Positions 1 through 19,585 of a DNA stretch of 36,541 bases are shown here, piece after piece. Within the stretch, counting starts at the first letter, position 1, and each line of letters begins with the position of its first letter. The notes beneath the pieces are model-generated. The model did not search any database. It was given only the letters and a program-made list of their open reading frames with translations, and was not told where the DNA came from. The translations under genes were made by a program, and so were the position numbers. The stretch comes from a virus, in IMG/VR virus record IMGVR_UViG_3300047089_000124, positions 1 to 36,541 of that record, one strand, 5' to 3'.

Positions 1-400
1 CTTCGCCGTAGGTGTTGCGGACCTTCCACCAGAACGCGTTGCCGTCCATCGCATACGACAGCACGGTCGCCTTCCAGAGCGCATCGCCGTCGTACGCCTC
101 ATTCGGCTCGCAGATCAGTTCCTCGAGCGGATGGTCAAGCACACGTTCCCAGATGCCATCCTGCTTCCGGCGCTGCACGACCATCTCGGCTTCGGTGAAC
201 GTGCGCTGCATCCACATCACCGGGGCCATCACGACGTTCGCGTGCAACCCGCGGTTCGTGTCGATCCGCGTGACGCTCGCGTGTACCGCAGAAATCGGGA
301 TAAAGCCCGTGCGATCGCTCAGAATCGTCAGTGTCTTGCGGGCGAACGCCGTAATGCGCCGCGGAAGATCCTTAATCACGGTCAAAGCGGTCGACGCCAT
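1..400 (-). CDS. Portal protein, HK97 family (N-terminal part, cut by left edge)
   Basis: The first about 133 residues of a phage portal protein, the ring at the capsid vertex through which DNA is packaged and to which the tail attaches. After an N-terminal helix the translation has the HK97-portal pattern: a stretch VVMAPVMWMQ, then DHPLEELICEPNEAYDG, then LSYAMDGNAFWWKVRN, which matches the family's 'HPL..LL..PN' and 'GNA(Y/F)W' blocks. The ATG at 400 shares one base with the TGA of the upstream large terminase gene (TGATG), so the two are translationally coupled. The rest of the gene, and presumably protease and capsid genes, lie beyond the left edge. Confidence 0.85.
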   Translation of the reverse strand, partial: MASTALTVIKDLPRRITAFARKTLTILSDRTGFIPISAVHASVTRIDTNRGLHANVVMAPVMWMQRTFTEAEMVVQRRKQDGIWERVLDHPLEELICEPNEAYDGDALWKATVLSYAMDGNAFWWKVRNTYGE

Positions 401-2100
401 CAGAACGACCCCACGAGCCACGAACCGCCGGCGGGCGCGGGGGCTACCATCGCGCGGCCGAGTGCCATGATCGAACCGACCACGCCGTCGATACGGCCCG
501 AGGCGCGTGACTTGTCTGGCTTGATGTTGTCCGCCGGGTCACGTTTGACCGCGACGTTCGACAGCATCCAGCGCATGACGGGATTGATGCCCGTCGGCGT
601 CAGGTGGCCGCACTGCTTCGCGACGACGATCTTCTCAAACTCTTTCGAGGGCTCGGACATCGAAGCGAAGCCCTGCCGGAACTCCACGCAGGTCAGACCA
701 TCCGTCTGCAGGTCGGTCGCCGTCTGCGTCGCATTCCACGGATCGAAAGCGACTTCCTCGATCACGTACTCTTTCGCGAACTCGCGCAGCGCCGCTTTCG
801 GGAACTCGTAGTCGACGACGTTCCCCGGTGTCGCGGTCAGCCAGCCGTCTCGAGCCCACGCGTCATACGGCACGCGATCTTTCTTCGACCGTTCGGCGAT
901 CGTGTCTTGCGGACAGAAGAACCGATACAGGAAGTCGAACCCGCCGTCGACCGGGAAGCAGAGCACGAGGGCCGTGAGATCCAGCTTCGCCGAGAGATCG
1001 AGGCCGGCCCAGCAGCGGGAACCCTTCAACGTCTTGGGATCGACGACGCGCTCGCAGGCGTTCCACGATTCGACCGGGATCCACCGTTCGCGCTGCTGCG
1101 TCCAGATGTTCAGGTGATAGCGAAGAAACGTGTTCAGATACGAGGGCGTCGTCTTGGCGCGCGCGCACTGCTCGGCCATGTAGTCGTACTTGAGCGACAC
1201 GCCGAGGTTCGGATTCGCCTTCGCCCAGACCGTGGGGTCGGTGAAGTCGTCCCCCTCGTCCGCCGCGGCGATGAACGCGAAGAAGGTGTCGTCCTCCAGT
1301 GCGCCCTCGAGCACTTGAATCGCCCGCTCGTGCAGTTCCCAGCCGATCGAGTCAGGATCGTAGACTCCGGCAGTCGTGATGATGAACGCCAACGGTTGCC
1401 GACGCGCGCCCATCGAGGTCACGATCACGTCATGCACATGGCGATCGGTGTGGGCGTGTGTCTCGTCCTCGATCAGCCCGTGCGTATTCAGTCCGTCCAG
1501 TGTCGACGAGTCGGCGCCGAGCGGCTCGAACTTCGATCCCAGCCGCTCACACGAAATGTTGTTGCGGAACGTCCTGACGAAGCGCTTCAACTCGGACGAC
1601 GCCTTGACCATCTTCGTCGCGCCGTCGTGGACTATCTTGGCCTGGTCCTTCTTGGTCGCCGCGGAATAGACCTGGGCGCCGCCTTCACCGTCCGCGACTG
1701 TCAGGTAGAGGCCCGTCGCCGAGCCCTCAACCGACTTGCCGTTCTTTCGCGGGATCTCGATGTAGGCAGTCCGGTAGCGTCTGGTCTGGTCCGCGCGCAT
1801 CCAGCCGAACACGGCGCGATAGGTCTGCCGCTGCCACCCCTCGAGGATGACCAGTTGGCCCGCGAGCTCCCCTTCATGGTGGCGGCAAAACCGTTCCACG
1901 AAGTCGACGACTCGCTGGCCCGCCTCAAGGTCGAACCAGAGCCCCTTCGGGTGATGGCTATGCGACGGGTCGCCGTAGACGGTCGGGTCGTTCCACCGTT
2001 CGCCGTACGCTGCGCGCAAGTCCTTCTCGTGCCGCTCCCAGCATAGACGCTCGTATTTCCCCGCGACTCGCGCCGCGGGCTGCTCGAGCATCGTCCCCAT
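400..2100 (-). CDS. terL: Terminase large subunit
   Basis: ATPase and nuclease that packages DNA into the prohead. The 566-aa length is normal for the Terminase_1 (HK97/P27-associated) family. Seen: a deviant Walker A PRKNGKS at residues 117-123, Walker B LIEDE at 209-213, and an RNase H-like nuclease domain with acidic residues D368 (AGLDLSAKLDLTAL), D453 (VAFDPWNA) and D538 (GRIDGVVGSIMAL). It starts 3 nt after the TAG of the small subunit gene and its stop overlaps the portal start. A second in-frame ATG three codons in (MGTM) is an alternative start. Confidence 0.95.
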   Translation of the reverse strand: MGTMLEQPAARVAGKYERLCWERHEKDLRAAYGERWNDPTVYGDPSHSHHPKGLWFDLEAGQRVVDFVERFCRHHEGELAGQLVILEGWQRQTYRAVFGWMRADQTRRYRTAYIEIPRKNGKSVEGSATGLYLTVADGEGGAQVYSAATKKDQAKIVHDGATKMVKASSELKRFVRTFRNNISCERLGSKFEPLGADSSTLDGLNTHGLIEDETHAHTDRHVHDVIVTSMGARRQPLAFIITTAGVYDPDSIGWELHERAIQVLEGALEDDTFFAFIAAADEGDDFTDPTVWAKANPNLGVSLKYDYMAEQCARAKTTPSYLNTFLRYHLNIWTQQRERWIPVESWNACERVVDPKTLKGSRCWAGLDLSAKLDLTALVLCFPVDGGFDFLYRFFCPQDTIAERSKKDRVPYDAWARDGWLTATPGNVVDYEFPKAALREFAKEYVIEEVAFDPWNATQTATDLQTDGLTCVEFRQGFASMSEPSKEFEKIVVAKQCGHLTPTGINPVMRWMLSNVAVKRDPADNIKPDKSRASGRIDGVVGSIMALGRAMVAPAPAGGSWLVGSF

Positions 2101-2103
2101 GTG

Positions 2104-2592
2104 CTAGGCTCCCTTCTCTTTGGGCTTGCCGAACAGAAAATCGGCGGTGACGTCTCTCGGAGCATCCGGTTCGTCAGTGCCGAAGTTCGCCGAGTCCGGT
2201 GTGATGCCGAATTTCGTCCCGAACTGGCTCATCATGACCCGTTCTTTCTGCGACAGCGTGACTTCGGGCCGTTGGCACACGTAGCCCTTCTCGGTCGTGA
2301 AGGTCGTTCCCGACTCGTCCACGACCTTCTCATACTCGCGCCACCGCGCGCAGCTCTGGCAGTAGGCCGCCAGTTCGGTGACGTTCTGTTTCGTGAGCAG
2401 CCCGCGCCGAAAGAGAAATGGCGCCACCCGGCGCCATTCTTCCTTGGCGATCCTGCCCAGCCAGGAGGGCGGGGAGGGGCATTTCGCCCCGGCCGGCGGC
2501 CGTTTGACTTTCGGTTTGACGTCCCGATCCTTGCGGAGCGTTCCAGAGAGCAGTTTCAGCACCCGCGGCTTCCGAGGGCGACCGCCTGGCAT
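2104..2592 (-). CDS. terS: Terminase small subunit, P27 family
   Basis: DNA-recognition subunit of the packaging terminase, 162 aa from the ATG at 2592. The start MPGGRPRKPRVLKLLSGT is the typical P27/phiSLT TerS opening, followed by PPSWLGRIAKEEWRRVAP and a helical region with LAAYCQSCARWREYE. A TTG start at 2646 would add 18 residues that do not look like the family, so 2592 is preferred. The gene lies between an HNH endonuclease gene and terL, the standard order for HK97-like phages that cut cos ends. Confidence 0.9.
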   Translation of the reverse strand: MPGGRPRKPRVLKLLSGTLRKDRDVKPKVKRPPAGAKCPSPPSWLGRIAKEEWRRVAPFLFRRGLLTKQNVTELAAYCQSCARWREYEKVVDESGTTFTTEKGYVCQRPEVTLSQKERVMMSQFGTKFGITPDSANFGTDEPDAPRDVTADFLFGKPKEKGA

Positions 2593-2663
2593 CAGCGAAC
2601 CCCCCCGGTTGCCGAGTTTTGACGGACTGTCGCGAAACGTGGCCAAGCGGTCAATTGGGAGAC

Positions 2664-2693
2664 CCCCCTGAAAGAAAACCCGATTTCAGGGGG
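2664..2693. repeat. Perfect 10-bp inverted repeat at HNH/TerS junction
   Basis: CCCCCTGAAA (2664-2673), a 10-nt spacer, then TTTCAGGGGG (2684-2693). On the minus strand it overlaps the TGA stop of the HNH gene and lies about 70 bp before the TerS start. No U-tract follows, so a classical rho-independent terminator is unlikely. A run of seven C (minus-strand G) recurs at 2601-2607. The stretch between the two genes (2593-2685) holds no other open reading frame of note. Confidence 0.75.
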
Positions 2694-3060
2694 TAGCGTT
2701 GTCGTGGGACTCGGCAGCCCGCTTAACGCTGTGGCATCGCCACGGCGCTTCGTCACACATGGACTGCCAGTTGGTCTCATCCCAAAAGAGCACCATGTCG
2801 CCGCGGTGAGGGATGATGTGGTCGACCAAGCTTGCGGCCACGATCCGACCGTGACGTTGGCACTCTGCGCAGAGCGGGTGAGCGGCGAGGAAGGCTGCAC
2901 GTGCCTTGCGCCAGTGGTGATCATATCCGCGAGACGCAGATGAACCGCGTCGATCATCCCAAGCTTTCTGTTGTTGCTTATGGTGTACGTTGCAGCGTCC
3001 GCGTTGAACAAGGGTAGGGCATCCTGGCTCTGTACATGGACGGAGCGGTGCAGTGGGCAC
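2686..3060 (-). CDS. HNH endonuclease (packaging-associated)
   Basis: A 124-aa HNH nuclease of the type encoded beside TerS in many cos phages, where it assists terminase cleavage (known for HK97 gp74-like proteins). Seen: N-terminal CTEPGCP and GRCNVH zinc ligands, then YDHHWRKARAAFLAAHPLC, CAEC, VDHIIPHRGD and CHSVK. The usual 'LC..CH' knuckle appears as MCDEAPWRCH, with a few extra residues between the two cysteines. The GTG start at 3060 lies one base after the TGA of the upstream gene; no strong ribosome-binding site is visible, so coupling is likely. Confidence 0.88.
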   Translation of the reverse strand: MPTAPLRPCTEPGCPTLVQRGRCNVHHKQQQKAWDDRRGSSASRGYDHHWRKARAAFLAAHPLCAECQRHGRIVAASLVDHIIPHRGDMVLFWDETNWQSMCDEAPWRCHSVKRAAESHDNATP

Positions 3061-3061
3061 A

Positions 3062-3334
3062 TCAGGAAGGAGGCATGCCGATGAGGCGTCTCTTTCGCTC
3101 TAGATCGTCCAACGCGTTCTTTAGCTTGAGGATGTCGAGTTCGGCGTTCGACGTGTCGAGGTTGACGACAATCGTGAGCTGATCACTCAGGTTTAGCGCC
3201 AAAGCCTTCCGCGAAAGGAGAAGCGCGGAGCATCGCCGGCAGTGAACGCGGAACTCGTTGCGCTCGCGGGTCGGGCCGTCGGTGTAGAGATGCCGGGAAT
3301 GGCCGAAGACGCGGCAGAGAAGAGAGCCTATCAC
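3062..3334 (-). CDS. Small zinc-knuckle phage protein (DUF1660-like N-terminus)
   Basis: 90 aa from a GTG at 3334 that overlaps the preceding stop (GTGA). The N-terminus LLCRVFGHSRH plus a later CRRC pair resembles the short prophage DUF1660 pattern 'LLCkLFGHkw ... CrrC'. The C-terminal half is a predicted helical or coiled-coil segment (LDILKLKNALDDLERKRR). The function is unknown. It is the second gene of the HNH-terS-terL operon. Confidence 0.6.
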   Translation of the reverse strand: MIGSLLCRVFGHSRHLYTDGPTRERNEFRVHCRRCSALLLSRKALALNLSDQLTIVVNLDTSNAELDILKLKNALDDLERKRRLIGMPPS

Positions 3335-3621
3335 GCGACGTGGCGAATGGCTTGCGCGAGCCCTGTGTATCCCGATCGGATCGCCTTCTGCCGTTCGTGC
3401 TTCCGGCGGTTGGCCTGTCGAGTCAGTGTCTCCCGCGCGTTCGTCGGCGTCATCGCGCCGGGTGGATTGGCGGATGAGAAGAGTCGGTCCCAATCCAAGC
3501 GTGCTAGGAGGAGACGAGACGTTCCGATACGACGAACGCTCGCCACCAGGACGAGCGCTTCGAGTATTTCCCTGGACTCAATGTCGACCGGATCGGCGGC
3601 AACTCGGGAAACTGATGTCAA
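3331..3621 (-). CDS. Hypothetical protein, first gene of the packaging operon
   Basis: Open frame of 96 aa from a TTG at 3621; the start is uncertain because no ATG is present, and an in-frame GTG about 30 codons in is an alternative. The product is basic and helical, with no motif I recognise. The support is position: its TGA overlaps the next GTG start, and it sits directly downstream of an AT-rich intergenic stretch that may hold the operon promoter. An overlapping frame extending the next gene upstream to 3493 is arginine-rich and looks like a shadow. Confidence 0.5.
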   Translation of the reverse strand: MTSVSRVAADPVDIESREILEALVLVASVRRIGTSRLLLARLDWDRLFSSANPPGAMTPTNARETLTRQANRRKHERQKAIRSGYTGLAQAIRHVA

Positions 3622-3708
3622 GATGGGCTGAAGACTTATACTGTCTTGCCCGCTTTCCTAGACGCTTTCTACGTTATAACTGTTTATGCGTTAGTTGCAC
3701 GTGAAACG
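3622..3708 (-). promoter_or_regulatory. AT-rich intergenic region, candidate late/packaging promoter and operator
   Basis: This 87-bp gap separates the last early gene (LuxR-type HTH) from the packaging operon. It holds a 14-bp near-palindrome centred on CACGTG (GTTGCACGTGAAAC, 3694-3707, one mismatched pair) and the 8-bp palindrome GTTATAAC (3673-3680). The latter reads TATAAC on the minus strand and could be a -10 box. No good -35 is seen 17 bp upstream of it, where the CACGTG palindrome lies instead, as expected for an activator-dependent promoter. Promoter function is inference. Confidence 0.45.
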
Positions 3709-3945
3709 TCACGCGACCTTCTGCTCAAGCATCCACGCCGCGATTCGCTCACGCGGTCGTCCCTCGCCGCCGATGCGCTGAGCAATGCGATCGACGTGGT
3801 TCTGCACCGTCTCTCGGCTGATTGTTCCACCGCGGCGAGATCGGAGGTTCGGGAGCCGTGAGGCGATTTGGGCGCAACTGAGGCCGCGCGAGACCAGTCG
3901 CGCTACGTCACGTTCGCGGGGCGTAAGGTCGAAGAATGTCGTCAC
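3709..3945 (-). CDS. LuxR/GerE-type helix-turn-helix protein
   Basis: 78-aa stand-alone DNA-binding domain. Seen: LTPRERDVARLVSRGLSCAQ (canonical GerE opening and first HTH helix), then ISRETVQNHVDRIAQRIG (recognition helix pattern). About ten extra residues (NLRSRRGG) are inserted between the two helices. There is no receiver or ligand-binding domain. The GTG at 3945 overlaps the upstream TGA. As the last gene of the early run and immediately before the terminase operon, it occupies the position where phages often encode the late-transcription regulator; that role is inferred. Confidence 0.8.
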   Translation of the reverse strand: MTTFFDLTPRERDVARLVSRGLSCAQIASRLPNLRSRRGGTISRETVQNHVDRIAQRIGGEGRPRERIAAWMLEQKVA

Positions 3946-4502
3946 GCGTCCGGCTCCCAGGGCTTCCGCGGCTCCTCGTTGGCGTTGCGCGAGATGACGC
4001 AACTCGATACGTAGGAAGCGGTGTCCGGCAATGGAAAGAACCGTTCGGTGCGCCAGCCGCCGCCGTCTTTCGCCTTCGCCTTGATGAGCGCCGAGAACGC
4101 GAACATCGGGTAGAGCTGAGCCGCGAGACGGATCTTAATTCTCGCGTCTTCCCACCAGCGCATTTTGGTCTCCTCGAATCGCACCGATCGATCGTTCTCG
4201 ACAACGAAGAAGTCCGGCGTGTATCGACAATCCGGTGCGAGGGTCAGGGTAATGGCTTCGTAGGCCCAATGCTTGATTTCCCCGGCGCGTTTCAACGTCT
4301 CAAGCTCTTGCGCGCGTTTCGCTTCGGTGCGGTTCATCTGGCGCGCTTTGGGCGTCTTGGCTTTCTGCTCGGCGAGGGCATGCGAGGCGCCGACGTCGGG
4401 AAACTGGCGACGCGCGAACTCGACGGCCTTGTGCTCGGCGACGCCCGCGTTTCGCAAAGCGGCGAGCGTTGCATCGTATCCGGCGAGGTTGACGGTGCTC
4501 AC
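3942..4502 (-). CDS. DUF1064-like nuclease (PD-(D/E)XK fold)
   Basis: 186 aa from a GTG at 4502 that overlaps the upstream stop (GTGA). The conserved block starts at about residue 56 with NRTEAKRAQELETLKRAGEI, then TPDFFVVENDRSVRFEETK: candidate catalytic residues E60, D97, E111 and K113, in the order of RecU-like PD-(D/E)XK enzymes. DUF1064 proteins are common in phage recombination and packaging regions. A helical N-terminal extension of about 55 residues (ATLAALRNAGVAEHKAVE) precedes the domain. The usual 'EVKG' is replaced by EETKM. Confidence 0.7.
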   Translation of the reverse strand: MSTVNLAGYDATLAALRNAGVAEHKAVEFARRQFPDVGASHALAEQKAKTPKARQMNRTEAKRAQELETLKRAGEIKHWAYEAITLTLAPDCRYTPDFFVVENDRSVRFEETKMRWWEDARIKIRLAAQLYPMFAFSALIKAKAKDGGGWRTERFFPLPDTASYVSSCVISRNANEEPRKPWEPDA

Positions 4503-4708
4503 GAGCGATCCCATTCTTTCGGCGGCATCGCCGTGGTCATCTTCTTGAAGCAGTCGTCGCAAACCACCTCGCGCGGCGCCTTTGATGCCGCGGCGTGCGG
4601 AAAGAGCGCGCGATACTCCGCGTCGGCCTCTTCGTCAGACCACTCGCAATCGAAGGTTCCCTTGCAGGCGGCACATGTGAACGATCCATACTTCGGCGCG
4701 TCAGCCAT
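4499..4708 (-). CDS. Small zinc-ribbon phage protein
   Basis: 69 aa with two CxxC knuckles, FTCAACKGTF near the start and VVCDDCFKKM near the end, separated by an acidic helix (WSDEEADAEYRALFP). This pattern is frequent in small early proteins of actinobacteriophage-like genomes; no function is established. The stop overlaps the next gene's GTG. The 36 bp upstream (4709-4744) hold nothing evident. Confidence 0.7.
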   Translation of the reverse strand: MADAPKYGSFTCAACKGTFDCEWSDEEADAEYRALFPHAAASKAPREVVCDDCFKKMTTAMPPKEWDRS

Positions 4709-4744
4709 TGTCGGGCTCTATGCGGTGAGAGAGGGACGCGGGAA

Positions 4745-5032
4745 TCAGGACCACATCGCCACGTCGTCGCGCGGCGTGCGAGCCTTCGCGAACTGTTCGA
4801 GCCGTTCGAGGCGACGCTCGACGTCGGCCGCCGTAATCTCTTTCGTGTCCGTCACGATCCACGCGATGAACGCGGCGACGAAGCAAGCGTAGAGCGTTCC
4901 CGCGACGCCATAGAGCCATCCGGGCGCGTGGAAGTGATCCAGCGCCAGCCACCAGACGAGCGCCATGTTCAGATACAAACTCGGCCGTGAGGCGCCGCCG
5001 AAATAGGTCTTGCACGCTTTCGTGTCGCTCAT
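4745..5032 (-). CDS. Small membrane protein
   Basis: 95 aa from ATG 5032. Two hydrophobic segments are visible, LYLNMALVWWLALDHF and WLYGVAGTLYACFVAAFIAWI, followed by a charged coiled-coil-like tail (ITAADVERRLERLEQFAKAR) that probably lies in the cytoplasm. The ATG follows the upstream TGA by one base. Function unknown. A different reading frame over the same DNA is arginine-rich and was rejected. Confidence 0.65.
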   Translation of the reverse strand: MSDTKACKTYFGGASRPSLYLNMALVWWLALDHFHAPGWLYGVAGTLYACFVAAFIAWIVTDTKEITAADVERRLERLEQFAKARTPRDDVAMWS

Positions 5033-5033
5033 G

Positions 5034-5336
5034 TCAGGTCTCACGGGTCGATGTTGCGAGCGTCATGCGTTGTGATAGTTCGATCGCGTGGACGCGCGCG
5101 TCGGCGGCGAGCGAATACACTCCATCAAGCGGAACGAACGCGGTTAGCGCAGGAACGATGGTCAGCCGATGCCTCGTGAATCCACCCGCCGCCAGAATTA
5201 GATCGTCGACACCATCGTGATCAGAGAGGGCGCAGCGCACGATGATGGGCACGAATACCTCCGTCGCGTGCGGCTCACACCACACCGCAAGTCGGGTCAG
5301 CGGCTCATCAAACTTGGCGAAATCGTTGTAGGCCAT
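5034..5336 (-). CDS. Hypothetical protein
   Basis: 100 aa from ATG 5336 (MAYNDFAKFDEPLTRLAVWC). No family recognised. The composition is balanced, with alternating hydrophobic stretches (EVFVPIIVRCALSD, DLILAAGG, LTIVPALTAFVPLDGVYSLA) suggesting a small alpha/beta fold. It lies in the tightly spaced early run, 1 bp before the membrane protein gene. Confidence 0.55.
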   Translation of the reverse strand: MAYNDFAKFDEPLTRLAVWCEPHATEVFVPIIVRCALSDHDGVDDLILAAGGFTRHRLTIVPALTAFVPLDGVYSLAADARVHAIELSQRMTLATSTRET

Positions 5337-5340
5337 TGGG

Positions 5341-5583
5341 TCAGGTCTCATGGGTCTCTAGAGAGTGGCGCGGCAATTCGCGTAAGCAGGTCTCGAGGTA
5401 GCGCGGGCGCTTTCGGGTCGGGGCGCGGTTGGCGTTCGAGAGTCGGTGACACGTTACACAGCGGCCCGACCGTCCGCATTTCCGGGTGTTTTCGGGCGTG
5501 TCGGGATGACCGCAGCGGAAGGCTCTAGGCTGCATCGCGGTCATGTCGTTCACCAACGACTCGTACGCGGCGACAGCGCTCAT
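5341..5583 (-). CDS. Small Cys/His-rich protein
   Basis: 80 aa from ATG 5583, which overlaps the upstream TGA (ATGA). Seen: FRCGHPDTPENTRKCGRSGR then CVTCHR, a CGH...C...C..C zinc-binding pattern similar to the N-terminal knuckle of phage HNH proteins ('CRnGHP.tpeN.......CrtC.R'). No catalytic HNH residues follow, and the remainder is basic. Function unknown. Confidence 0.6.
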   Translation of the reverse strand: MSAVAAYESLVNDMTAMQPRAFRCGHPDTPENTRKCGRSGRCVTCHRLSNANRAPTRKRPRYLETCLRELPRHSLETHET

Positions 5584-5753
5584 CGAATCACCGCCCGCGC
5601 TAGCAACATCAGCGTGAGCACGAATCCGATCGCGGTCCCGATCCCTGCGAGAATCGTCATCCGCGCGGAGAAGCGGACGGCGGCGCTCGCGCCGAAGAAC
5701 GCCTGACCCCAGAGCCACCGCATCTCCGCGACGACTCGCTTGAGAATCGTCAT
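5580..5753 (-). CDS. 57-aa single-pass membrane protein
   Basis: A short gene running from ATG 5753 to the TGA at 5582-5580. The product begins MTILKRVVAEMRWLWGQAFF and ends with a hydrophobic segment ILAGIGTAIGFVLTLMLLA plus RAVIR. Both ends overlap their neighbours as ATGA (upstream gene stop at 5750, downstream start at 5583), which supports real translation despite its size. Function unknown. Confidence 0.65.
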   Translation of the reverse strand: MTILKRVVAEMRWLWGQAFFGASAAVRFSARMTILAGIGTAIGFVLTLMLLARAVIR

Positions 5754-6013
5754 CGGTCAGCCTTCGCACGTTCAGCGCGTGAGACCGCGTCCGCCCACGT
5801 CGCTGTACTCTCGTCGCTCGATCGGAGCGGGAGGTCGGGGCGGTAGCTCGCGTCGTGCGCATTGCGTGGATGCGCGATGGCGCCGCCGACTTCGGCCTGA
5901 ACGCCGCAGATTGAGCAGACGAAGATGCCGGGGCGCGGGAAGGCGTACGTGCAGGCCGGTGTCTGAATCACCTCCGTCACGGCGACGAAGTAGTGCTGAT
6001 GCTGGTCGCTCAT
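5750..6013 (-). CDS. Hypothetical protein with CxxC knuckle
   Basis: 87 aa from ATG 6013. It contains GIFVCSICGVQAEVGG, a single CxxC followed by histidine residues (IAHPRNAHD), possibly one zinc site. The C-terminus is hydrophilic. ATGA overlaps at both ends place it in the coupled early run. No family assigned. Confidence 0.6.
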   Translation of the reverse strand: MSDQHQHYFVAVTEVIQTPACTYAFPRPGIFVCSICGVQAEVGGAIAHPRNAHDASYRPDLPLRSSDESTATWADAVSRAERAKADR

Positions 6014-6168
6014 CGCTCAGCCTCCAGCAGCATCGCGCGCAGCTCGTTCCGGAGAATCGCGCGCTCTTTCGTGGTCTCGCTCAGAGCTGAATCGCCGCGC
6101 ACAACGACGGCTTCGCATGCTCGCTGGAACGCGGCCAAGAGGAAATCCACTCGTTCCCGTCGAGTCAT
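6010..6168 (-). CDS. 52-aa hypothetical helical protein
   Basis: The start at ATG 6168 (MTRRERVDFLLAAFQRACEA) is chosen because it overlaps the preceding stop at 6165 (ATGA) and because the longer frame upstream is Gly/Arg-rich noise. The product is almost entirely amphipathic helix. No function recognised. Confidence 0.55.
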   Translation of the reverse strand: MTRRERVDFLLAAFQRACEAVVVRGDSALSETTKERAILRNELRAMLLEAER

Positions 6169-6419
6169 CGCTTCCGCCCTCCCTTCGCCTTGAGCGCGGC
6201 CTTGAGTTCCGCGACCTCCGCAGTCAGCGCCCGAATGTCGACCTCGCGCCAATCGGCCACGGTGCGCAGCTGCTCGTGCGAGAGCGCGATCGCGAGGAAT
6301 CGCTCTTTGAGATCCGAGCCGGCGAGCGGGTAGCGCTGCGCGGACGCGACCCAGAGCGCGACGTCGGCGGGCGAGATGATCGTGGTGGACAAAGGCGAGA
6401 CGATCGTGGATTGGCTCAT
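6165..6419 (-). CDS. Hypothetical protein with C-terminal coiled coil
   Basis: 84 aa from ATG 6419 (MSQSTIVSPLSTTIISPADV). The last 25 residues form a coiled-coil-like helix (DIRALTAEVAELKAALKAK). The ATG overlaps the stop of the frameshifted gene upstream (ATGA), which is one reason to think that gene originally ended there. Function unknown. Confidence 0.55.
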   Translation of the reverse strand: MSQSTIVSPLSTTIISPADVALWVASAQRYPLAGSDLKERFLAIALSHEQLRTVADWREVDIRALTAEVAELKAALKAKGGRKR

Positions 6420-6648
6420 GGGAACATCGCTCGCATCATCTCGACATGGCTGTAAAGCGCGCCGAGAAGCGCGCACAGATCGGCCAGCTGCGCATGCGCT
6501 GCGCCGTGATCTCGTAGCCGAGAATCCCCATCTCGACGGCGCGATCTGCGTGCGCGTCAGAAGCGCGGCGGAACATGTCGGACGGCGACGGCGAGACCAG
6601 CGTGACTTCGGTAACCGTGCCGGAGCCGCTCAGCTCTGTTTGGGTCAT
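6416..6648 (-). pseudogene. Small gene interrupted by an apparent one-base frameshift
   Basis: From ATG 6648 the reading frame is sound to about residue 53 (GILGYEITAQRMR), then continues as SWPICARFSARF to a TGA at 6436. A shift of -1 near 6490 instead gives QLADLCALLGALYSHVEMMR followed by AMFP and a TGA at 6418-6416. That TGA overlaps the next start as ATGA, exactly like the neighbouring genes. The restored helix is much more protein-like. So either a base is missing (a sequencing error or a true mutation) or a frameshift is used. No slippery heptamer is evident. Function unknown. Confidence 0.55.
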
Positions 6649-6905
6649 CGGCGCCCCGGCAGCAATCGCATCGGCGTGACGTCGTACGCGGGCACCATGC
6701 GCCGGTAGTCGTCGATTCCCCGCAAGACGCGCTTGCCCTGCTTCTCCGCCCGTTCGCGCTCAACGCGATATGCCGTGATCGCGGCCCGGCGTTTCGGATC
6801 GTCGAGCCGTGCGCGACGTTCGGCTTCGGCGCGCAGCTCGCGTTCGGCCATCTCGCGTCGGCGCTGCTGTCGTTCGAGGCAGAGGACTTCGGACTGGCTC
6901 GGCAT
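6645..6905 (-). CDS. Highly charged helical protein
   Basis: 86 aa from ATG 6905. A long Glu/Arg-rich helix (LERQQRRREMAERELRAEAE) suggests a coiled coil. The tail MVPAYDVTPMRLLPGRR is less charged. It follows the upstream TAA directly and overlaps the downstream ATG (ATGA). No family recognised. Confidence 0.5.
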   Translation of the reverse strand: MPSQSEVLCLERQQRRREMAERELRAEAERRARLDDPKRRAAITAYRVERERAEKQGKRVLRGIDDYRRMVPAYDVTPMRLLPGRR

Positions 6906-7124
6906 TTATGCGTTCTCCGTCGGCGCGCCGGGATGCGGCATTGGCCGATGGCTCGGGTAATTGGCGTACTTGTCGAACGTCTCGCGTTGTTCAGTCGCGC
7001 GCTTCGCCGCCTTTCGGCGCGCGGCTTCGTTCTGCGCGATGCGTCGCTCGTGGCGAGCCTGGAGCGCCATCTGCGTGATCGCCTTGCCTTTCTTGACGCC
7101 GGCACGTCGTCGGGATCGTGGCAT
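6906..7124 (-). CDS. Small basic protein
   Basis: 72 aa, strongly basic at the N-terminus (MPRSRRRAGVKKGKAITQMA), with an Arg/Lys/Glu helix and a short proline-containing tail (YANYPSHRPMPHPGAP). It may bind nucleic acid, but that is only suggested by charge. The ATG at 7124 shares a base with the stop of the STAS gene (TGATG); the TAA abuts the next ATG. Confidence 0.5.
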   Translation of the reverse strand: MPRSRRRAGVKKGKAITQMALQARHERRIAQNEAARRKAAKRATEQRETFDKYANYPSHRPMPHPGAPTENA

Positions 7125-7561
7125 CAGCCGAAAGCCTCGGGAGAGTGAAATTCGGAGGGGAACGCGGGAGTAATCGCCAGCAAATCGGTCAACCGCTGTG
7201 CACCCAGATGTGCCGCTAAGTCGTCCGAGACGCCGACGACTGCGAACGTCCCGTGACAGGACAGGGCCTCGACGTGGTTCTTGAGCCGGACCAGTTCAGC
7301 CAGTCCTCGCCTAGTGCACTCGCGAACGGCGCTGCAGTCGAGCACGAGGTCGGTCATGCCTGCCGCGCCCCACTCGGCGGCGAAGAGATCCAAGCGGTGC
7401 ACATGGGCCTCGTCGAGCGCGCAGTCGAGAGTGATGACCAACGTCTTCCGGGCGTCTCGAGTCATCGGCTGTTCGGTGACTGAGGCCCAGGACGGGGCGA
7501 AGAAGCGGACCGAGAAGAGGCGCTCGGCGGGGGTGATCTGACGTGGCTGGAAGCGGGTCAT
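7124..7561 (-). CDS. STAS-domain protein (anti-sigma antagonist-like)
   Basis: 145 aa from ATG 7561; a second ATG at residue 33 would leave just the domain. The region from about residue 38 fits a STAS fold: KTLVITLDCALDEAHVHRLD, then MTDLVLDCSAVRECTRRGLA and FAVVGVSDDLAAHLGAQRL. In SpoIIAA-type antagonists the loop is 'D.S....DSSGL' with a phosphorylated Ser. Here it reads DCSAVRECTRRGLAEL, so the phospho-acceptor is absent or replaced (Thr). It may act in partner switching or simply in protein binding. First gene after a repeat-rich intergenic stretch. Confidence 0.65.
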   Translation of the reverse strand: MTRFQPRQITPAERLFSVRFFAPSWASVTEQPMTRDARKTLVITLDCALDEAHVHRLDLFAAEWGAAGMTDLVLDCSAVRECTRRGLAELVRLKNHVEALSCHGTFAVVGVSDDLAAHLGAQRLTDLLAITPAFPSEFHSPEAFG

Positions 7562-7596
7562 CTGCTGGTTCCCGCGCCGGAGATGGTTCCGACCCT

Positions 7597-7616
7597 CACA
7601 CCCCTAAAGGGGTGTG
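7597..7616. repeat. Perfect hairpin, 8-bp stem and 4-nt loop
   Basis: CACACCCC TAAA GGGGTGTG, in the gap between the primase-helicase stop (7710) and the STAS start (7561). It is GC-rich but not followed by a T run on either strand, so terminator function is doubtful. Confidence 0.75.
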
Positions 7617-7626
7617 TAGGGGATCG

Positions 7627-7653
7627 GGAACCACTTTCTGGCGAAGTGGTTCC
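7627..7653. repeat. Perfect 10-bp inverted repeat overlapping first iteron
   Basis: GGAACCACTT (7627-7636), a 7-nt loop, then AAGTGGTTCC (7644-7653). The right arm is also the first unit of the 11-bp tandem repeat that follows. Two further GGTTCC words lie at 7566-7571 and 7585-7590, so this 148-bp gap is saturated with one sequence word in both orientations. Confidence 0.75.
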
Positions 7654-7674
7654 GAAGTGGTTCCGGTGTGGTTC
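7642..7674. repeat. Three tandem 11-bp repeats (iteron-like) beside the primase-helicase gene
   Basis: CGAAGTGGTTC occurs twice back to back and a third time as CGGTGTGGTTC (two differences), giving an exact 11-bp period, about one helical turn. Such helically phased repeats next to a replication gene are typical of protein-binding arrays at origins or operators. The function here is inference. Confidence 0.7.
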
Positions 7675-7709
7675 CGGCCTGATACGACAGGCACTTAGCG
7701 TTGGAGGAC

Positions 7710-9470
7710 TCACAAGAACGCCGCCGCCGGCGCAAATGAGGGCAGTCTGAGGCGCGCGAGCCGGCTGTTTCCGTCGTTGACGAGGAGGCCGCTGGCGATC
7801 ATGTGCGTGATGCGAGTCAGCGTCTGCTGGCGTTGCTCGCCGACGGCTTCGGCGACGTCATTGGCTGAGCAGCCGGGTCGGTCGCGCACGATCGCTTGGA
7901 TGCGTTGATCGATCGGCGCTTTTTGCGGGCCGGATGGGTCGACGAGCGTGTACTCGTGGCCATCGTATCGGAAATCCACTCCGCGAGCGGGAACACGGCC
8001 AACGGGACGCACGCGGCGTCGCGATGGGTCGGTGGTCGCGAACTCGTCGGGCGGATACACTTCCGCGATGATGTCGACCGCGCCTCCAATGGCGGACGAA
8101 TCGCGGTACTTCCCGTCGGCTTTCCTGGCGTGGTGAATCACGATGAGCGCCACGGCTGTCGTGTGCGACAGGTCGGTGAGGCCCTGCACCACGTTCTGCG
8201 TCTGCGTTGCGTTGTTCGCGCTCTCGACGAGCCCCGCGGAATACGCCACAAGGCTGTCGACGATCACGAGGCTCGAGCGCACGGCCTCGATGTGCTGGCG
8301 AATCTCCGCCAGCCGATCCTCCGGCTCGCCGAGGAACCGGTCCACCAGATACACGCGTTCGGGCTCGGCGCCGAAGTCTTTGAGTCGACGCGCCGTGTCT
8401 CCGATGAACTCCTCGAGGCCAACGATCAGGACCGTTCCGAGCGTGCACGGCTCGCCGAGGAAATCCCCACCGTTCGAAACCTGCGCGGCCACGAAGCCGG
8501 TGAGCGTGGACTTCCCCGACTTCTCGCGCGCCGCGAGCAACGTCGATCGCGAGGCCCACGCGAGGTACGGAACCACCGGCGCCGGCGGTCGCATCATCTC
8601 GGCGTCCTGCCAGATCTCGTCTAAGCGCCAACGCGTGCGCTTCGAAGGATCCGGCACCCAGAAGCGCGTCGCGCCGATCAACTCTTCGAGCGAGTCGAAG
8701 TCGCCACCGGCCTCGAGCCAGTCGGAGACGTCGCCCTTCGGCGGGAGGTTCGGCAGGCCGACGATCTTGACGTGACAATTCGCCGCGGTAAGCGATGCCG
8801 CTACCTGCTCGGCGTGCGAACGGCCCGCGTCGTCGTTGTCGGGCAGGATGACGACCTCGGACCCTGCGAGCGTCTTCGAATAGTGCTCGCGCCATTTCCC
8901 CGCGCCCATCGGGTTCGTCGTCGCCGGATAGCCGTAGCCGGCGAGCGCGTCTGCGTCCTTCTCGCCCTCGACCACGAAGACGCGTTTGCCGAGGGCGACA
9001 GCTTCAGCGACTTCCGGCAGGCGATACAGAACGGTCGTGACGCCATTGAGATTCCACGTCCACTCGCCGGCGCCATTGCGGCGACGCTGCGAAAACTTCT
9101 TTGGTTCGAAGCGACAGGACTGAAACGCCAGCGAGCCGTCGAGGTTGGAGTAGTCGTACGTGGCCACCAAGCGCGCGCGCGTCTCGACGCCTTGCGCCTT
9201 CTCGGCGACAGGCGACGCAGGCTTCGCGGCGCCGACGAACAGCTCGGCCATCGTCAGGCCGAGCGCGGCGACGACCGCGCGCGAGTCGCACCCCGCGTGG
9301 CATTTCATCAGCACGCGCCGATCGGTGCCGATCGTGAGCGATAGCGATCGCTGCCGATCGTCATGTGATGGACACAACGCCATCCACCGTTCGTGGCCGG
9401 CCGGCTTGACGCCGTCCAGTTTCTCCAATACGCGATCGATCGCCGACTCGGCGACGGCCGGGAGCGGCAT
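7710..9470 (-). CDS. Primase-helicase (zinc finger, TOPRIM, RecA-like ATPase)
   Basis: 586-aa replication protein. In order: a CHC2-type zinc finger with C33-x2-H36 and C57-x3-C61; a TOPRIM domain with VFVVEGEKDADAL (E168-E170) and ILPDNDDAGRSHA (D211-D213); a RepA/AAA_25-like helicase domain with Walker A AREKSGKST (314-322) and Walker B SLVIVDSLVAYS (D405) plus VIHHARKADGKYRDSSAI; and a winged-helix-like C-terminus from about 525. It would synthesise primers and unwind DNA at the fork. ATG 9470 lies 6 bp after the TAG of the nuclease gene. It is followed by the repeat-rich gap 7562-7709. Confidence 0.9.
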   Translation of the reverse strand: MPLPAVAESAIDRVLEKLDGVKPAGHERWMALCPSHDDRQRSLSLTIGTDRRVLMKCHAGCDSRAVVAALGLTMAELFVGAAKPASPVAEKAQGVETRARLVATYDYSNLDGSLAFQSCRFEPKKFSQRRRNGAGEWTWNLNGVTTVLYRLPEVAEAVALGKRVFVVEGEKDADALAGYGYPATTNPMGAGKWREHYSKTLAGSEVVILPDNDDAGRSHAEQVAASLTAANCHVKIVGLPNLPPKGDVSDWLEAGGDFDSLEELIGATRFWVPDPSKRTRWRLDEIWQDAEMMRPPAPVVPYLAWASRSTLLAAREKSGKSTLTGFVAAQVSNGGDFLGEPCTLGTVLIVGLEEFIGDTARRLKDFGAEPERVYLVDRFLGEPEDRLAEIRQHIEAVRSSLVIVDSLVAYSAGLVESANNATQTQNVVQGLTDLSHTTAVALIVIHHARKADGKYRDSSAIGGAVDIIAEVYPPDEFATTDPSRRRVRPVGRVPARGVDFRYDGHEYTLVDPSGPQKAPIDQRIQAIVRDRPGCSANDVAEAVGEQRQQTLTRITHMIASGLLVNDGNSRLARLRLPSFAPAAAFL

Positions 9471-9476
9471 GCCGGG

Positions 9477-10091
9477 CTAGTCTGGAATGAGAAAGTGGAG
9501 GGCATGGACATTCGGGAATTCGGGCAGCGGCGACGAGACGATCGACGCGACATAGTGGTCGCCATCGTGTGCGCCGCAGCATTGGCACCTGAACGACTCG
9601 TCGCTATCGCAGAACCACCAACCGCGGCATTGCGTGCAGGCGAACAGCTCGACGCGCGACGGCGCCGTCGCCAGCACCACGTCGATCGGCGCGTCGACGT
9701 CAATCAGGCGACGACGCCAGCCGCGAAACACGCCCCCCGGCTCGCACGTTACGAGCGGTATGTCGGGGCACCACTCGCCCGTGTAGGTGCGCCGCGGCGT
9801 GTGTTTGAGCAGCGCGTTGAACTTGACGAAATCGCGACGCTCGAAGACGCCCTTCACCTCGACATACTGGCGCGACTTGGGCAGGTAGAAATCGGGCAGG
9901 TAGAACACGTCGCCGAAGTACCGGCCCTTGCGCTCGTATTCCCAAACGACGTCGAGCGTGTCGAACGCGCGCGCCCAATCCGCCTCGAGCTTTGACCGGA
10001 AGGTCAGGCCGTTGTAATCGGTCGGAATCGACCGTCGGCCATCGACTTGCCTCGATGGGTCGTTCGCGGGATTGCTGCCGTAGGCGCTCAT
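9477..10091 (-). CDS. PD-(D/E)XK nuclease with C-terminal zinc ribbon
   Basis: 204 aa. The N-terminal half has LTFRSKLEADWARAFDTL (E36), YLPDFYLP (D67) and YVEVKGVFERRD (E78-x-K80), the signature of a PD-(D/E)XK endonuclease like those beside phage replication genes. A zinc ribbon follows with CTQC (152-155) and CQCC (169-172). It likely processes DNA during replication or recombination. ATG 10091 overlaps the upstream stop (ATGA). The split of nuclease and DNA-binding ribbon in one chain is seen directly; the substrate is unknown. Confidence 0.75.
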   Translation of the reverse strand: MSAYGSNPANDPSRQVDGRRSIPTDYNGLTFRSKLEADWARAFDTLDVVWEYERKGRYFGDVFYLPDFYLPKSRQYVEVKGVFERRDFVKFNALLKHTPRRTYTGEWCPDIPLVTCEPGGVFRGWRRRLIDVDAPIDVVLATAPSRVELFACTQCRGWWFCDSDESFRCQCCGAHDGDHYVASIVSSPLPEFPNVHALHFLIPD

Positions 10092-10321
10092 TTGACGCCC
10101 GGCTCGCCGACGTGAGTTACTCCGACGTCCGGGCTTTCAACTGCCTGGACGTCTTCCGGCTCGCAGACGATCCGCCGTCCGCTCGACGCGATTTCGACGA
10201 CGATGGCCGAGTCGTCGGTGACGTACGCGATGACCGTCCCGAGCTCGCCAGCGGTGCCCGGAATGCCGGCCGAGGCACGCACCCGAACGCGCGCGCCGAG
10301 CACTGGACGCGGGGCGCTCAC
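10088..10321 (-). CDS. Small beta-rich protein
   Basis: 77 aa from GTG 10321. VLGARVRVRASAGIPGTAGE, then LGTVIAYVTDDSAIVVEI and RRIVCEPEDVQAVE look like a small SH3/KOW-like beta barrel (hydrophobic-Gly-Thr-Val pattern). The family was not identified with certainty. Its TGA overlaps the nuclease start as ATGA. Confidence 0.55.
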   Translation of the reverse strand: MSAPRPVLGARVRVRASAGIPGTAGELGTVIAYVTDDSAIVVEIASSGRRIVCEPEDVQAVESPDVGVTHVGEPGVK

Positions 10322-10557
10322 GCCACGCCTCCACCGATGACCGCGGAGGGCAGGGAACTCGCGCAGTTACGCGCCAGCATCGCGCGACCGCGATAACCGT
10401 CAGCTAGACGGGTTGTAGTCGCAGACTGACACGCCGCGGACCCTGGAGACGTCGCGATGCAGCGTGGATGCCGTAGCGACACTGGCGCTGGCGCCATCGC
10501 GACAGCACGGCGACAGGCGTATAAGATGTAATTCGTCTTTAATCGCGACAGTTGCAT
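10318..10557 (-). CDS. Doubtful ORF in repeat-rich intergenic region
   Basis: 79 codons from ATG 10557 to a stop that overlaps the next GTG (GTGA), which argues for translation. The product (MQLSRLKTNYILYACRRAVA...) is poor in acidic residues and rich in Ala/Arg/Ser, and the same DNA carries repeated GCGACAG words, so it may simply be an open stretch of regulatory DNA. A shorter start (MLARNCASSLPSAVIGGGVA) is also possible. If it is not a gene, 10322-10615 is an about 294-bp control region. Confidence 0.3.
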   Translation of the reverse strand: MQLSRLKTNYILYACRRAVAMAPAPVSLRHPRCIATSPGSAACQSATTTRLADGYRGRAMLARNCASSLPSAVIGGGVA

Positions 10558-10604
10558 GATAGTTTACTGATAGCAGTTGATAGTGGCGTCACTGTCGCTG
10601 TCGT
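10499..10604. repeat. Cluster of short repeats GCGACAG / CTGTCGC
   Basis: GCGACAG occurs at 10499-10505, 10510-10516 and 10545-10551, and its complement CTGTCGC at 10592-10598, with one more near copy (CTGTCGT) at 10598-10604. The first two copies are 11 bp apart. Together with the TGATAG array this marks the gap as a probable protein-binding region. Confidence 0.55.
10557..10583. repeat. Three phased TGATAG repeats
   Basis: TGATAG at 10557, 10568 and 10578, spaced 11 and 10 bp, in an AT-rich patch within GC-rich surroundings. It lies between the stop of one early gene (10616) and the next start on the minus strand. It may be an operator or activator array; function is inference. Confidence 0.6.
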
Positions 10605-10615
10605 CATACGGGGAG

Positions 10616-10936
10616 TCATGCCGCCCGCCCCCGAGAACGCGCGTATTCGGCCTCGCAGAACCGACAATGGGGCATCGTTTTCACCAGCGCCTCACTGAGC
10701 GCGAACCGGAGTGGAATCGGTGGAATGACGTCGCCGCAGGTTGTGTAGCCCTTCTCGCCGACGCGGTGCACCGCGGAGATGGCATCGGTGAGCCGGGACG
10801 TGTGTTGGACGATCGCCCAGGCGACGAACTGGCCGTACTCGAGGGGCACGAGTTCCATCGCTTCGCGGTCTCTGGTGGCCTGTTCAGCCGCGGCGAGTTC
10901 TATTTCTCGCATGCCGGGGATGTCGAGGGCGCTCAT
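10616..10936 (-). CDS. Hypothetical protein with CxxC
   Basis: 106 aa from ATG 10936, which has the best ribosome-binding site in the region (GAGGAGG about 9 bases upstream). The N-terminal half is helical (MREIELAAAEQATRDREA); the C-terminus has MPHCRFCEAEYARSRG with one CxxC. No family recognised. It is the last gene before the repeat-bearing gap 10322-10615. Confidence 0.6.
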   Translation of the reverse strand: MSALDIPGMREIELAAAEQATRDREAMELVPLEYGQFVAWAIVQHTSRLTDAISAVHRVGEKGYTTCGDVIPPIPLRFALSEALVKTMPHCRFCEAEYARSRGRAA

Positions 10937-10937
10937 G

Positions 10938-11108
10938 CTACCGTCCCTCCTCTGGGGCTTCGGCGCGCACGCTACACGCCAATAGGGCCGCGCGCGTTTC
11001 CAATAACAGAGATCTACTCACAACACACGTCGAGTCGGCGGGGTGGTGTGCAATCATTGCCGCGATGCGCATGGCGAGACCATGAAGATGAGAGTCCCAG
11101 GTGCTCAT
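10938..11108 (-). CDS. 56-aa hypothetical protein
   Basis: Starts at ATG 11108, overlapping the upstream TGA (ATGA), and ends with TAG one base before the next ATG. The product MSTWDSHLHGLAMRIAAMIA... is helical and contains LLLETRAALLACSV. The gene's 3' end carries the GAGGAGG ribosome-binding site of its downstream neighbour. Function unknown; short, but supported by its fit in the overlap chain. Confidence 0.6.
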   Translation of the reverse strand: MSTWDSHLHGLAMRIAAMIAHHPADSTCVVSRSLLLETRAALLACSVRAEAPEEGR

Positions 11109-11338
11109 GGCTGCCTCTCAGGGGTGCCGCCCGCCGAACGGAAGTAGTTGGTTATGAGTTTCATCGTGTCCTCGGCCAACGCCTTTTCTTTCTTCGTCAC
11201 TTTCTCGCGCGGCATGTAGAACGTGACCACGCCGTCACCGTTGTTGGCGCTCACCGTGACGTCGCCCGGCCGCGTTCGCGGCAACTTTCCCAAGTCAGCC
11301 ATTGGGTCTCTCAGGGGGACTGCGACTGGTCCCCTCAT
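11105..11338 (-). CDS. Small hypothetical protein
   Basis: 77 aa from ATG 11338, chosen because it overlaps the preceding TGA as ATGA; ATG 11302 (MADLGKLPRTRPGDVTV) is a good alternative, since the first 12 residues look less protein-like. The core has a beta-like stretch DVTVSANNGDGVVTFYMPRE followed by a lysine-rich helix. Unknown function. Confidence 0.55.
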   Translation of the reverse strand: MRGPVAVPLRDPMADLGKLPRTRPGDVTVSANNGDGVVTFYMPREKVTKKEKALAEDTMKLITNYFRSAGGTPERQP

Positions 11339-11574
11339 CGTTCCTCCTTTCCGGAATGCGGCGCGACGGGGAGCGGAGAGAGTTCGGACGCGAGGACGGG
11401 AGCGTTAGAACCGTCGTCGAACGTGACCCACCATGACGATGCCACGCCGCCATCGGTGACGACGCAATCCTCGCCGCTGTGCCGCGCGATGCGATCGGAT
11501 TCGTACCGTGGGTCGAACGTGAATCGCGCTCTTGCTCCCACGGAGGGGAACTCGGGGGACTGGTTAGCGGACAT
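11335..11574 (-). CDS. Small hypothetical protein, beta-rich
   Basis: 79 aa from ATG 11574 (MSANQSPEFPSVGARARFTF). GARARFTFDPRYESDRIARH, GEDCVVTDG and WWVTFDDGSNAPVLASEL suggest a small SH3-like barrel similar in style to the 77-aa protein at 10088. It overlaps the 3' end of the upstream gene by 11 bp. Unknown function. Confidence 0.55.
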   Translation of the reverse strand: MSANQSPEFPSVGARARFTFDPRYESDRIARHSGEDCVVTDGGVASSWWVTFDDGSNAPVLASELSPLPVAPHSGKEER

Positions 11575-12025
11575 GGGCGGGCTCCGTTGGCGCTTCTTCT
11601 TGCGTGTCGAGATCATCGGCGGGAGGCTGGTAGAGACCAACAGCGCGCTGCATATCGTAGAGCGTCGCGGCGGTTTGTTCGTCGCGCCATTCTTTCCACG
11701 AGTGGTCGCGAAGCAGGTGGTAGAGCCAGCGCGGGTGTTCGGGCTTCGGGTCGAATGGAAGCGGGCCATCTTCCAGTTGAAACTCTTTCCCGTCTTCGTC
11801 TTCATCCCACCACGCCGCGCATCGTTCGCAGCCGTGATAACGCAGATGCTCGGCGCAGAAATACAGGCCGCAGCCCTCGTCACCGCCGCACGGTTGCTCG
11901 TTGCAGCAGACATGCGCGAGGCCGCGATCTATCTGCGCGTCGCATCCCGGATGATCGCAATAGCACGGCACCATGTAGCCCACCCATCGCCCGTGCTGAT
12001 CGGGTCCACCAAGTCCCCAGCCCAT
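11564..12025 (-). CDS. Cysteine-rich protein with multiple zinc knuckles
   Basis: 153 aa. The N-terminal half is dense in Cys/His: VPCYCDHPGCDA, HVCCNEQPCGGDEGCG, LYFCAEHLRYHGCERC, likely binding two or more zinc ions. The acidic middle (WWDEDEDGKEF) is followed by EHPRWLYHLLRDHSWKEWRD, a block I associate with small proteins of actinobacteriophage type. Start ATG 12025 shares a base with the upstream TAA (TAATG). Confidence 0.65.
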   Translation of the reverse strand: MGWGLGGPDQHGRWVGYMVPCYCDHPGCDAQIDRGLAHVCCNEQPCGGDEGCGLYFCAEHLRYHGCERCAAWWDEDEDGKEFQLEDGPLPFDPKPEHPRWLYHLLRDHSWKEWRDEQTAATLYDMQRAVGLYQPPADDLDTQEEAPTEPAHVR

Positions 12026-18659: not shown

Positions 18660-18884
18660 TTATGCAACCTCGCCAGTGGGTGTGCCGAAGTACTTGCCGA
18701 TCAGGGAGTCGATGGCGGCGTTTAGTTCGGGGCCACCCTGTCGCTCGCCGTTCAGGACTTCGTTGATATGCTGGTGGCTGACCGGGTACACCTCGGTTCG
18801 CCAGTACGACAGCGTCCAGCCAGCGAGGTCCAAGGCGGCGCTAAAGCGTTGCTTGCGTGATGGTTCCGTGGTGGGTAGAGTCAT
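18660..18884 (-). CDS. Cro-like regulator
   Basis: 74 aa from ATG 18884. KQRFSAALDLAGWTLSYWRT, EVYPVSHQHINEVLNGERQG then PELNAAIDSLIGKYF looks like a small phage HTH protein of the type 'kqrf..al...GwtL..wa.e.gvs..hl..vl.GeR'. It is the first gene of the leftward early operon and is divergent from the CI-like gene. Its promoter (18918-18946) is about 35 bp upstream. It probably represses the other direction and/or itself. Confidence 0.65.
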   Translation of the reverse strand: MTLPTTEPSRKQRFSAALDLAGWTLSYWRTEVYPVSHQHINEVLNGERQGGPELNAAIDSLIGKYFGTPTGEVA

Positions 18885-18917
18885 CTACGGCTCACTGTGG
18901 CGGTTATCACGGTGAGC

Positions 18918-18946
18918 AGTATGCTTGCGAAAGTCGCAAGCGTCAA
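18918..18946 (-). promoter_or_regulatory. Early leftward promoter with operator in the spacer
   Basis: On the minus strand: -35 TTGACG (18946-18941), exactly 17 bp, then -10 CATACT (18923-18918). The whole 17-bp spacer is a perfect dyad, CTTGCGA AAG TCGCAAG on the plus strand (18924-18940). A protein bound there would block RNA polymerase directly. A further half-site copy AAGTCGCAA lies at 18945-18953. It drives the Cro-like gene and the early operon; regulator identity (CI- or Cro-like) is inferred. Confidence 0.7.
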
Positions 18947-18980
18947 GTCGCAAATCGCCTTTCGGAGAAAGGTTTACAAA

Positions 18981-19304
18981 GTGTCCGCGAAAGGTGTCAC
19001 TCGGGCCGACGTGCTGGTGCGGCTCGCCGAGCGAGGCGGGCGAGTCCGTCAGGTCCGTGAGGCGATGGGGCTGACGGGGGCAGCATTCGCGATCGAGTTG
19101 TCGCGGCTGCTCAAGACGCTAGGCACGCCAGGGAAATACGACGAAGCCAAGGTCTCGAAAATCGAGGGCGGTACGAGAAAGTTGACGGCGGAAGAGGCGG
19201 CCGTAATCGCCTCTATCGACCCAGAGGAACGACCCGTCGCCTGGCTGGTGTTCGGGGACGTCTCGCGAAAGATGGACGCCAGGACGTGGCGCCAGACGGC
19301 CTAG
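18981..19304 (+). CDS. CI-like repressor (short, HTH)
   Basis: 107 aa from GTG 18981, preceded by GGAGAAAGG at a good distance. Starts at ATG 18921 or GTG 18897 would run through the operator and are less likely. VRLAERGGRVRQVREAMGLT then GAAFAIELSRLLKTLG and YDEAKVSKIEGGTRKLTAEE form an XRE-type HTH with an insertion between helices ('vSkiE.G.R.lt.eEa'). It ends soon after, with no protease or oligomerisation domain. The only well-supported plus-strand gene of normal size. Confidence 0.7.
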   Translation: MSAKGVTRADVLVRLAERGGRVRQVREAMGLTGAAFAIELSRLLKTLGTPGKYDEAKVSKIEGGTRKLTAEEAAVIASIDPEERPVAWLVFGDVSRKMDARTWRQTA

Positions 19305-19531: not shown

Positions 19532-19585
19532 CGGTGCTGTGCTCGCTCGCCTTCGGGTGGTTTCGGTTAGTGATTGGGGTCACAC

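Follow-up and report, generated by a model that had tools for sequence, protein, structure and literature searches.

A stand-alone GerE-type protein beside the packaging genes of a soil phage as a candidate late-gene activator

Organisation of the packaging region and a probable cos site

The window analysed here, 36,541 bp with 64% GC, is the entire IMG/VR virus record IMGVR_UViG_3300047089_000124, from a soil phage. Its minus strand holds nearly all well-scoring genes and carries, between 36 and 24 kb, the genes for the head-tail connector and the tail, then an endolysin-like gene at 22.7-23.4 kb and replication genes that include a primase (7710-9470). A Cro-like ORF (18660-18884, minus) and a probable repressor ORF (18897-19304, plus), both read by eye, face each other, and this divergent pair suggests a switch as in temperate phages; none of the window genes was recognised as an integrase. 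Matches to window positions 1 and 36541 were separated by ~5.4 kb in two relatives, L003 (2616-8075) and L007 (1282-6745). The full genome is therefore probably ~42 kb in length and the record an incomplete, permuted piece of it. Several 6-bp palindromes (CCCGGG, CACGTG, GGATCC, GAATTC, CCATGG) were ~3- to 14-fold rarer than expected in the window, as in restriction-avoiding phages.

Within the packaging region, a resolvase/DUF1064-like nuclease gene (3942..4562, minus; phrog_190 Holliday junction resolvase, 3.9e-17) lies upstream of a small HTH gene (3709..3945, minus), which is followed in order by a promoter-like gap, two small ORFs, an HNH endonuclease gene, a probable cos site, terS and terL. 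From the gap through terL, every gene lies on the minus strand. The first small ORF past the gap (3331..3621, TTG start) has no family match, and its stop overlaps, as GTGA, the probable GTG start (at 3334) of a DUF1660-like zinc-ribbon ORF (3062..3334). A longer version of this second ORF matched phrog_2670 (E 0.006) and DUF1660 (E 0.03). The HNH endonuclease is of the packaging type (2686..3060; phrog_144, 4.6e-32) and is followed by terS (2104..2592; phrog_83, 2.5e-33 for a longer ORF) and terL (400..2100; phrog_9, 3e-170). Codon-usage scores were uninformative in the stretch around the HTH gene, where the HNH and HTH genes themselves scored negative.

Comparison with related contigs revealed a probable DNA end between HNH and terS, which the initial annotation had missed. 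Position 1 of each of three contigs from different metagenomes (L002, L003 and L004) aligned to window position 2639. A fourth contig, L032, was 96% identical on the HNH side and matched the window to 2638 (L032 ~390), beyond which its terS side was different. Because three contigs start and a fourth diverges at 2638/2639, we regard this position as a probable cos site; it lies ~47 bp beyond the stop of HNH. The mosaic joint of L032 falls exactly on it. The HNH gene thus adjoins both terS and a fixed DNA end, deduced from the contigs, as in cos-type, HK97-like packaging; HK97 itself packages through HNH-TerS-TerL (PMC11331095). The start of terS was placed at ATG 2592 rather than TTG 2646, since the former lies downstream of the probable cos site. 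More distant terL relatives (L012, L018 and L022) open with GCAGGTTT as well; a G-run comes next, 600-700 bp ahead of terL, and they perhaps share the same cos design.

A stand-alone GerE protein in the slot of late activators

The HTH gene encodes a protein of 78 aa. Its GTG start is preceded by a GGGAG motif and overlaps the stop of the upstream resolvase-like gene as GTGA. As first proposed from the sequence, the product is a stand-alone GerE (LuxR/NarL-type) DNA-binding domain: PF00196 (GerE) scored 34.3 bits against a curated cut-off of 23.5, and the autoinducer-binding N-terminal domain of LuxR-type quorum receptors was absent, leaving the GerE domain alone. All NCBIfam matches fell below their cut-offs. 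In a single-sequence AF2 model (mean pLDDT 79.5), helices spanned residues 9-19, 24-33, 44-58 and 64-77, a predicted four-helix GerE fold that includes the fourth (dimerisation) helix. The best Foldseek match of this model was NarL (1je8, TM 0.71/0.83), and the nearest solved structures were NarL, LiaR, DosR, VpsT and CviR, with the GerE fold also among the best. No structural match passed E 0.001, which is unsurprising given the short chain.

The short canonical HTH turn of the GerE domain was absent from the 78-aa protein. Alignments with phmmer to both NarL and DosR placed a 9-residue gap (~residues 33-41) between the scaffold and recognition helices, and in the model this turn forms a low-confidence loop (residues 34-43, pLDDT ~59). 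The insertion, which lies within PNLRSRRGGT (3823..3852, minus) and carries three arginines, had been reported as 10 residues long; its presence stands, and these alignments shorten it by one residue. Since the profile still matches above its cut-off despite the insertion, the sequence argues for a GerE variant that is still a member rather than a non-member. NarL contacts DNA through K188, V189 and K192. The equivalent positions of the 78-aa protein are occupied by Q, N and D, and the Arg-rich loop may compensate for these replaced contact residues.

Relatives of the 78-aa protein were sought in several collections. There was no PHROG match at E 0.01, no relative among viral contigs by homology search and none in a single phylum represented by 398 genomes. 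Viral contigs scanned with two degenerate motifs for the HTH returned only unrelated matches, and all six matches from an insertion-specific scan of GTDB genomes were due to chance. The best tblastn match against phages had an E of 0.1, and those against plasmids were host LuxR proteins without the insertion. This absence is weak evidence, because exact-pattern scans miss diverged relatives. Using terS, primase and resolvase as bait yielded no relatives. Relatives were found with terL and HNH as bait; the close ones end within HNH or at the probable cos site and stop short of the HTH gene, which this cos site would place near the other virion DNA end. No homologue with the gene order of the window was found in the collections searched. 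The best match to the window HTH among the fetched loci, with the insertion left out, came from G009 (L030; L135 ~6340-6500, minus), a phage with a related terL. Here, the GerE domain is fused to a zinc-ribbon-like tail, and its gene lies near an integrase and outside the packaging slot.

We also took a census of the slot itself, using HNH relatives fetched with their flanks; 40 of these supplied 82 ORFs lying immediately ahead of the HNH gene. The commonest families were phrog_36 (10 members) and phrog_248 (9), both transcriptional regulators/activators (ArpU/RinA/sigma-like), counts that are not independent because several of the relatives are near copies of one another. One slot gene scored above the cut-off for TIGR01636 (RinA), and others matched TIGR01637 (ArpU) below the cut-off. 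The slot also held resolvases and nucleases, as it does in the window, and in some relatives Rz-like spanins, i.e. a lambda-like order. Among the HNH relatives examined, GerE genes were present elsewhere, and none was at the slot beside HNH. The 78-aa protein matched neither TIGR01636 nor TIGR01637, and its gene lies where ArpU/RinA genes do, just upstream of HNH-terS-terL. It therefore shares the position, not the family, of late activators. RinA binds upstream of terS and is needed for the late operon (PMC9867676). By analogy, a late-switch role for the 78-aa protein would be well founded by position, because the slot in HNH-bearing relatives most often holds ArpU/RinA-type activators. The positional argument of the initial annotation, that this is the slot of late activators, thus holds.

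The AT-rich gap and its palindrome

Downstream of the HTH gene lies the short AT-rich gap described at the outset (3622..3708, minus; 45% GC versus 64% for the window). The 100-bp stretch from 3607 has the second lowest GC content in the window (43%, tied with that at 10520), the lowest being found at 19552 (40%). Of the three TATAA motifs that the minus strand of the window contains, two fall within the gap. This gave two candidate -10 boxes: TATAAC (3673..3678), already recognised in the first reading and located 19 nt after CACGTG, and TATAAG (3635..3640), which that reading had overlooked and which is embedded in a weak AAGAC/GTCTT inverted repeat. At the usual spacing, neither is preceded by a -35 box (best ~3/6 by hand count). 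A sigma-70 scan of the minus strand of 1-12000 likewise found no two-box promoter, a result that suits an activator-dependent promoter. The gap has the look of such a promoter region; functionless AT-rich gaps also exist.

Directly after the HTH stop codon, at 3694..3707, lies an imperfect 14-bp palindrome, GTTgCACGTGaAAC, which is a candidate operator. Although the palindrome proposed initially is indeed present, with 6/7 pairs of GTTGCACGTGAAAC matching, it is not significant alone and does not exceed chance. The window contains 62 14-mers with at least 6/7 pairs, these are present in 11.5% of 87-bp stretches, and one arises in 8.3% of gap sequences after base shuffling (5.6% with a perfect 6-bp core). 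The palindrome stood alone in the window, where allowing up to 3 mismatches yielded no further copy (9 matches versus 12.8 expected), and it was absent from the 132 other loci compared. CACGTG occurs three times in the window versus 13.7 expected. This rarity was rejected as a specific signal, since CCCGGG, ATGCAT, GGATCC, GAATTC and others are likewise rare and it does not therefore single the palindrome out.

The position of the palindrome depends on which -10 box is considered. Relative to the start estimated from TATAAC, its centre lies at ~-34.5, i.e. over the -35 region, and relative to that estimated from TATAAG at ~-72.5. Activators of the NarL/LuxR type commonly lie near -41.5/-42.5 or farther upstream, a site over the -35 region is more usual for a repressor, and ~-72.5 is a usual class I position. 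The placement of the palindrome at the -35 position of TATAAC was correctly noted, but this is not a usual position for an activator. If the palindrome is the site, TATAAG would fit activation better than TATAAC, because of its class I spacing. As an operator the palindrome is unproven; the sequence allows this role and does not favour it over chance.

A candidate late switch

We propose that the end of the early operon makes the 78-aa protein as a stand-alone GerE-type transcription factor, which would most likely dimerise via its fourth helix and act on the AT-rich gap next to its gene. Once bound, it would switch on the small ORFs, HNH, (cos), terS and terL together with the structural genes beyond, and would so do the job held by ArpU/RinA or Q in other phages. 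The evidence for this late switch consists of position and sequence, and we infer DNA binding, dimerisation, activation and the bound sequence in the gap. Chiefly by position, activation of the late genes by the 78-aa protein is the best single explanation of the locus, one that we advance tentatively and to which we give close to an even chance. The protein with its insertion, its slot and the promoter-like gap are supported, and the protein is plausible as a variant of the phage late activators.

A function read from position is an analogy, and a small GerE protein can also repress or act elsewhere. The 78-aa protein may thus be a DNA-binding regulator other than a late activator, repressing the gap promoter or the early operon or acting on host genes, while transcription of the late operon depends on a different factor or continues into it from the early operon. 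We consider this possible, if doubtful. Centred at ~-34.5, the palindrome would overlie the -35 region belonging to TATAAC, a usual position for a repressor; the early genes share a strand with the late genes, making read-through possible; and the related phage G009 carries its small GerE protein away from the packaging slot. However, the slot is typical of late activators and the HTH gene is immediately followed by a promoter-like gap. A further reading, which we hold unlikely, is that host RNA polymerase, by itself or together with an unseen factor of the phage, uses the gap as an ordinary promoter, the palindrome having arisen by chance and the HTH gene being an unrelated accessory. The chance-level frequency of the palindrome, the quality of TATAAC and TATAAG as -10 boxes and an HTH protein without a known phage family would agree with this, whereas neither box has a recognisable -35 box at the usual spacing and the HTH gene abuts the promoter. 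Finally, action of the small inverted repeats at the RNA level, as an attenuator or terminator in the manner of Q-type antitermination, is highly improbable. The weak folding of the gap RNA (z -1.67) and its AAGAC/GTCTT repeat speak for it; against it, 15/200 shuffles fold equally well, no T-run follows a stem and no terminator was called in the gap.

The likeness of the 78-aa protein to known systems is partial. The ArpU/RinA super-family (phrog_36, phrog_248, TIGR01637, TIGR01636) is alike in its slot upstream of HNH-terS-terL, in consisting of small HTH proteins and in its proposed target upstream of terS, whereas the window protein has no sequence match to it and is GerE-type, not sigma-region-4-like. 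With NarL, DosR and GerE (PF00196), the protein shares the modelled four-helix fold, a score above the Pfam cut-off and the fourth helix, but it has no sensor or receiver domain, carries the 9-residue insertion in the HTH turn and has the NarL DNA-contact residues replaced. LuxR-type DNA-binding domains are also encoded by Aeromonas phage Apop (LuxR) and VP882 (VqmA). These are full-length receptors with ligand-binding domains that serve in lysis-lysogeny control (PMC6456758, PMC10432266), in contrast to the DNA-binding domain alone found here. Stand-alone 'LuxR C-terminal' or 'CsgD HTH' proteins of uncultured Caudovirales (A0A6J5RGA1, 77 aa; A0A6J5RW13, 91 aa), found by structure, are similarly small phage GerE-fold proteins, although they share 17-32% identity with the window protein at weak E-values. 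A literature search found no LuxR-type late activator beside a terminase.

The fullest form of the proposal is that the late switch of a cos phage has passed from the ArpU/RinA or Q type to a GerE/NarL-type protein whose HTH turn is extended and Arg-rich, and that this protein activates a -35-less promoter via a CACGTG-cored operator; this we judge to be unlikely in all its parts. If the 78-aa protein does switch on the late genes, the phage late activators described so far would be joined by a GerE/NarL-type switch, and HTH folds unrelated to one another could evidently occupy the position ahead of the packaging genes. A concrete job would also be at hand for the stand-alone LuxR-type proteins that uncultured phages encode and that are as yet unstudied.
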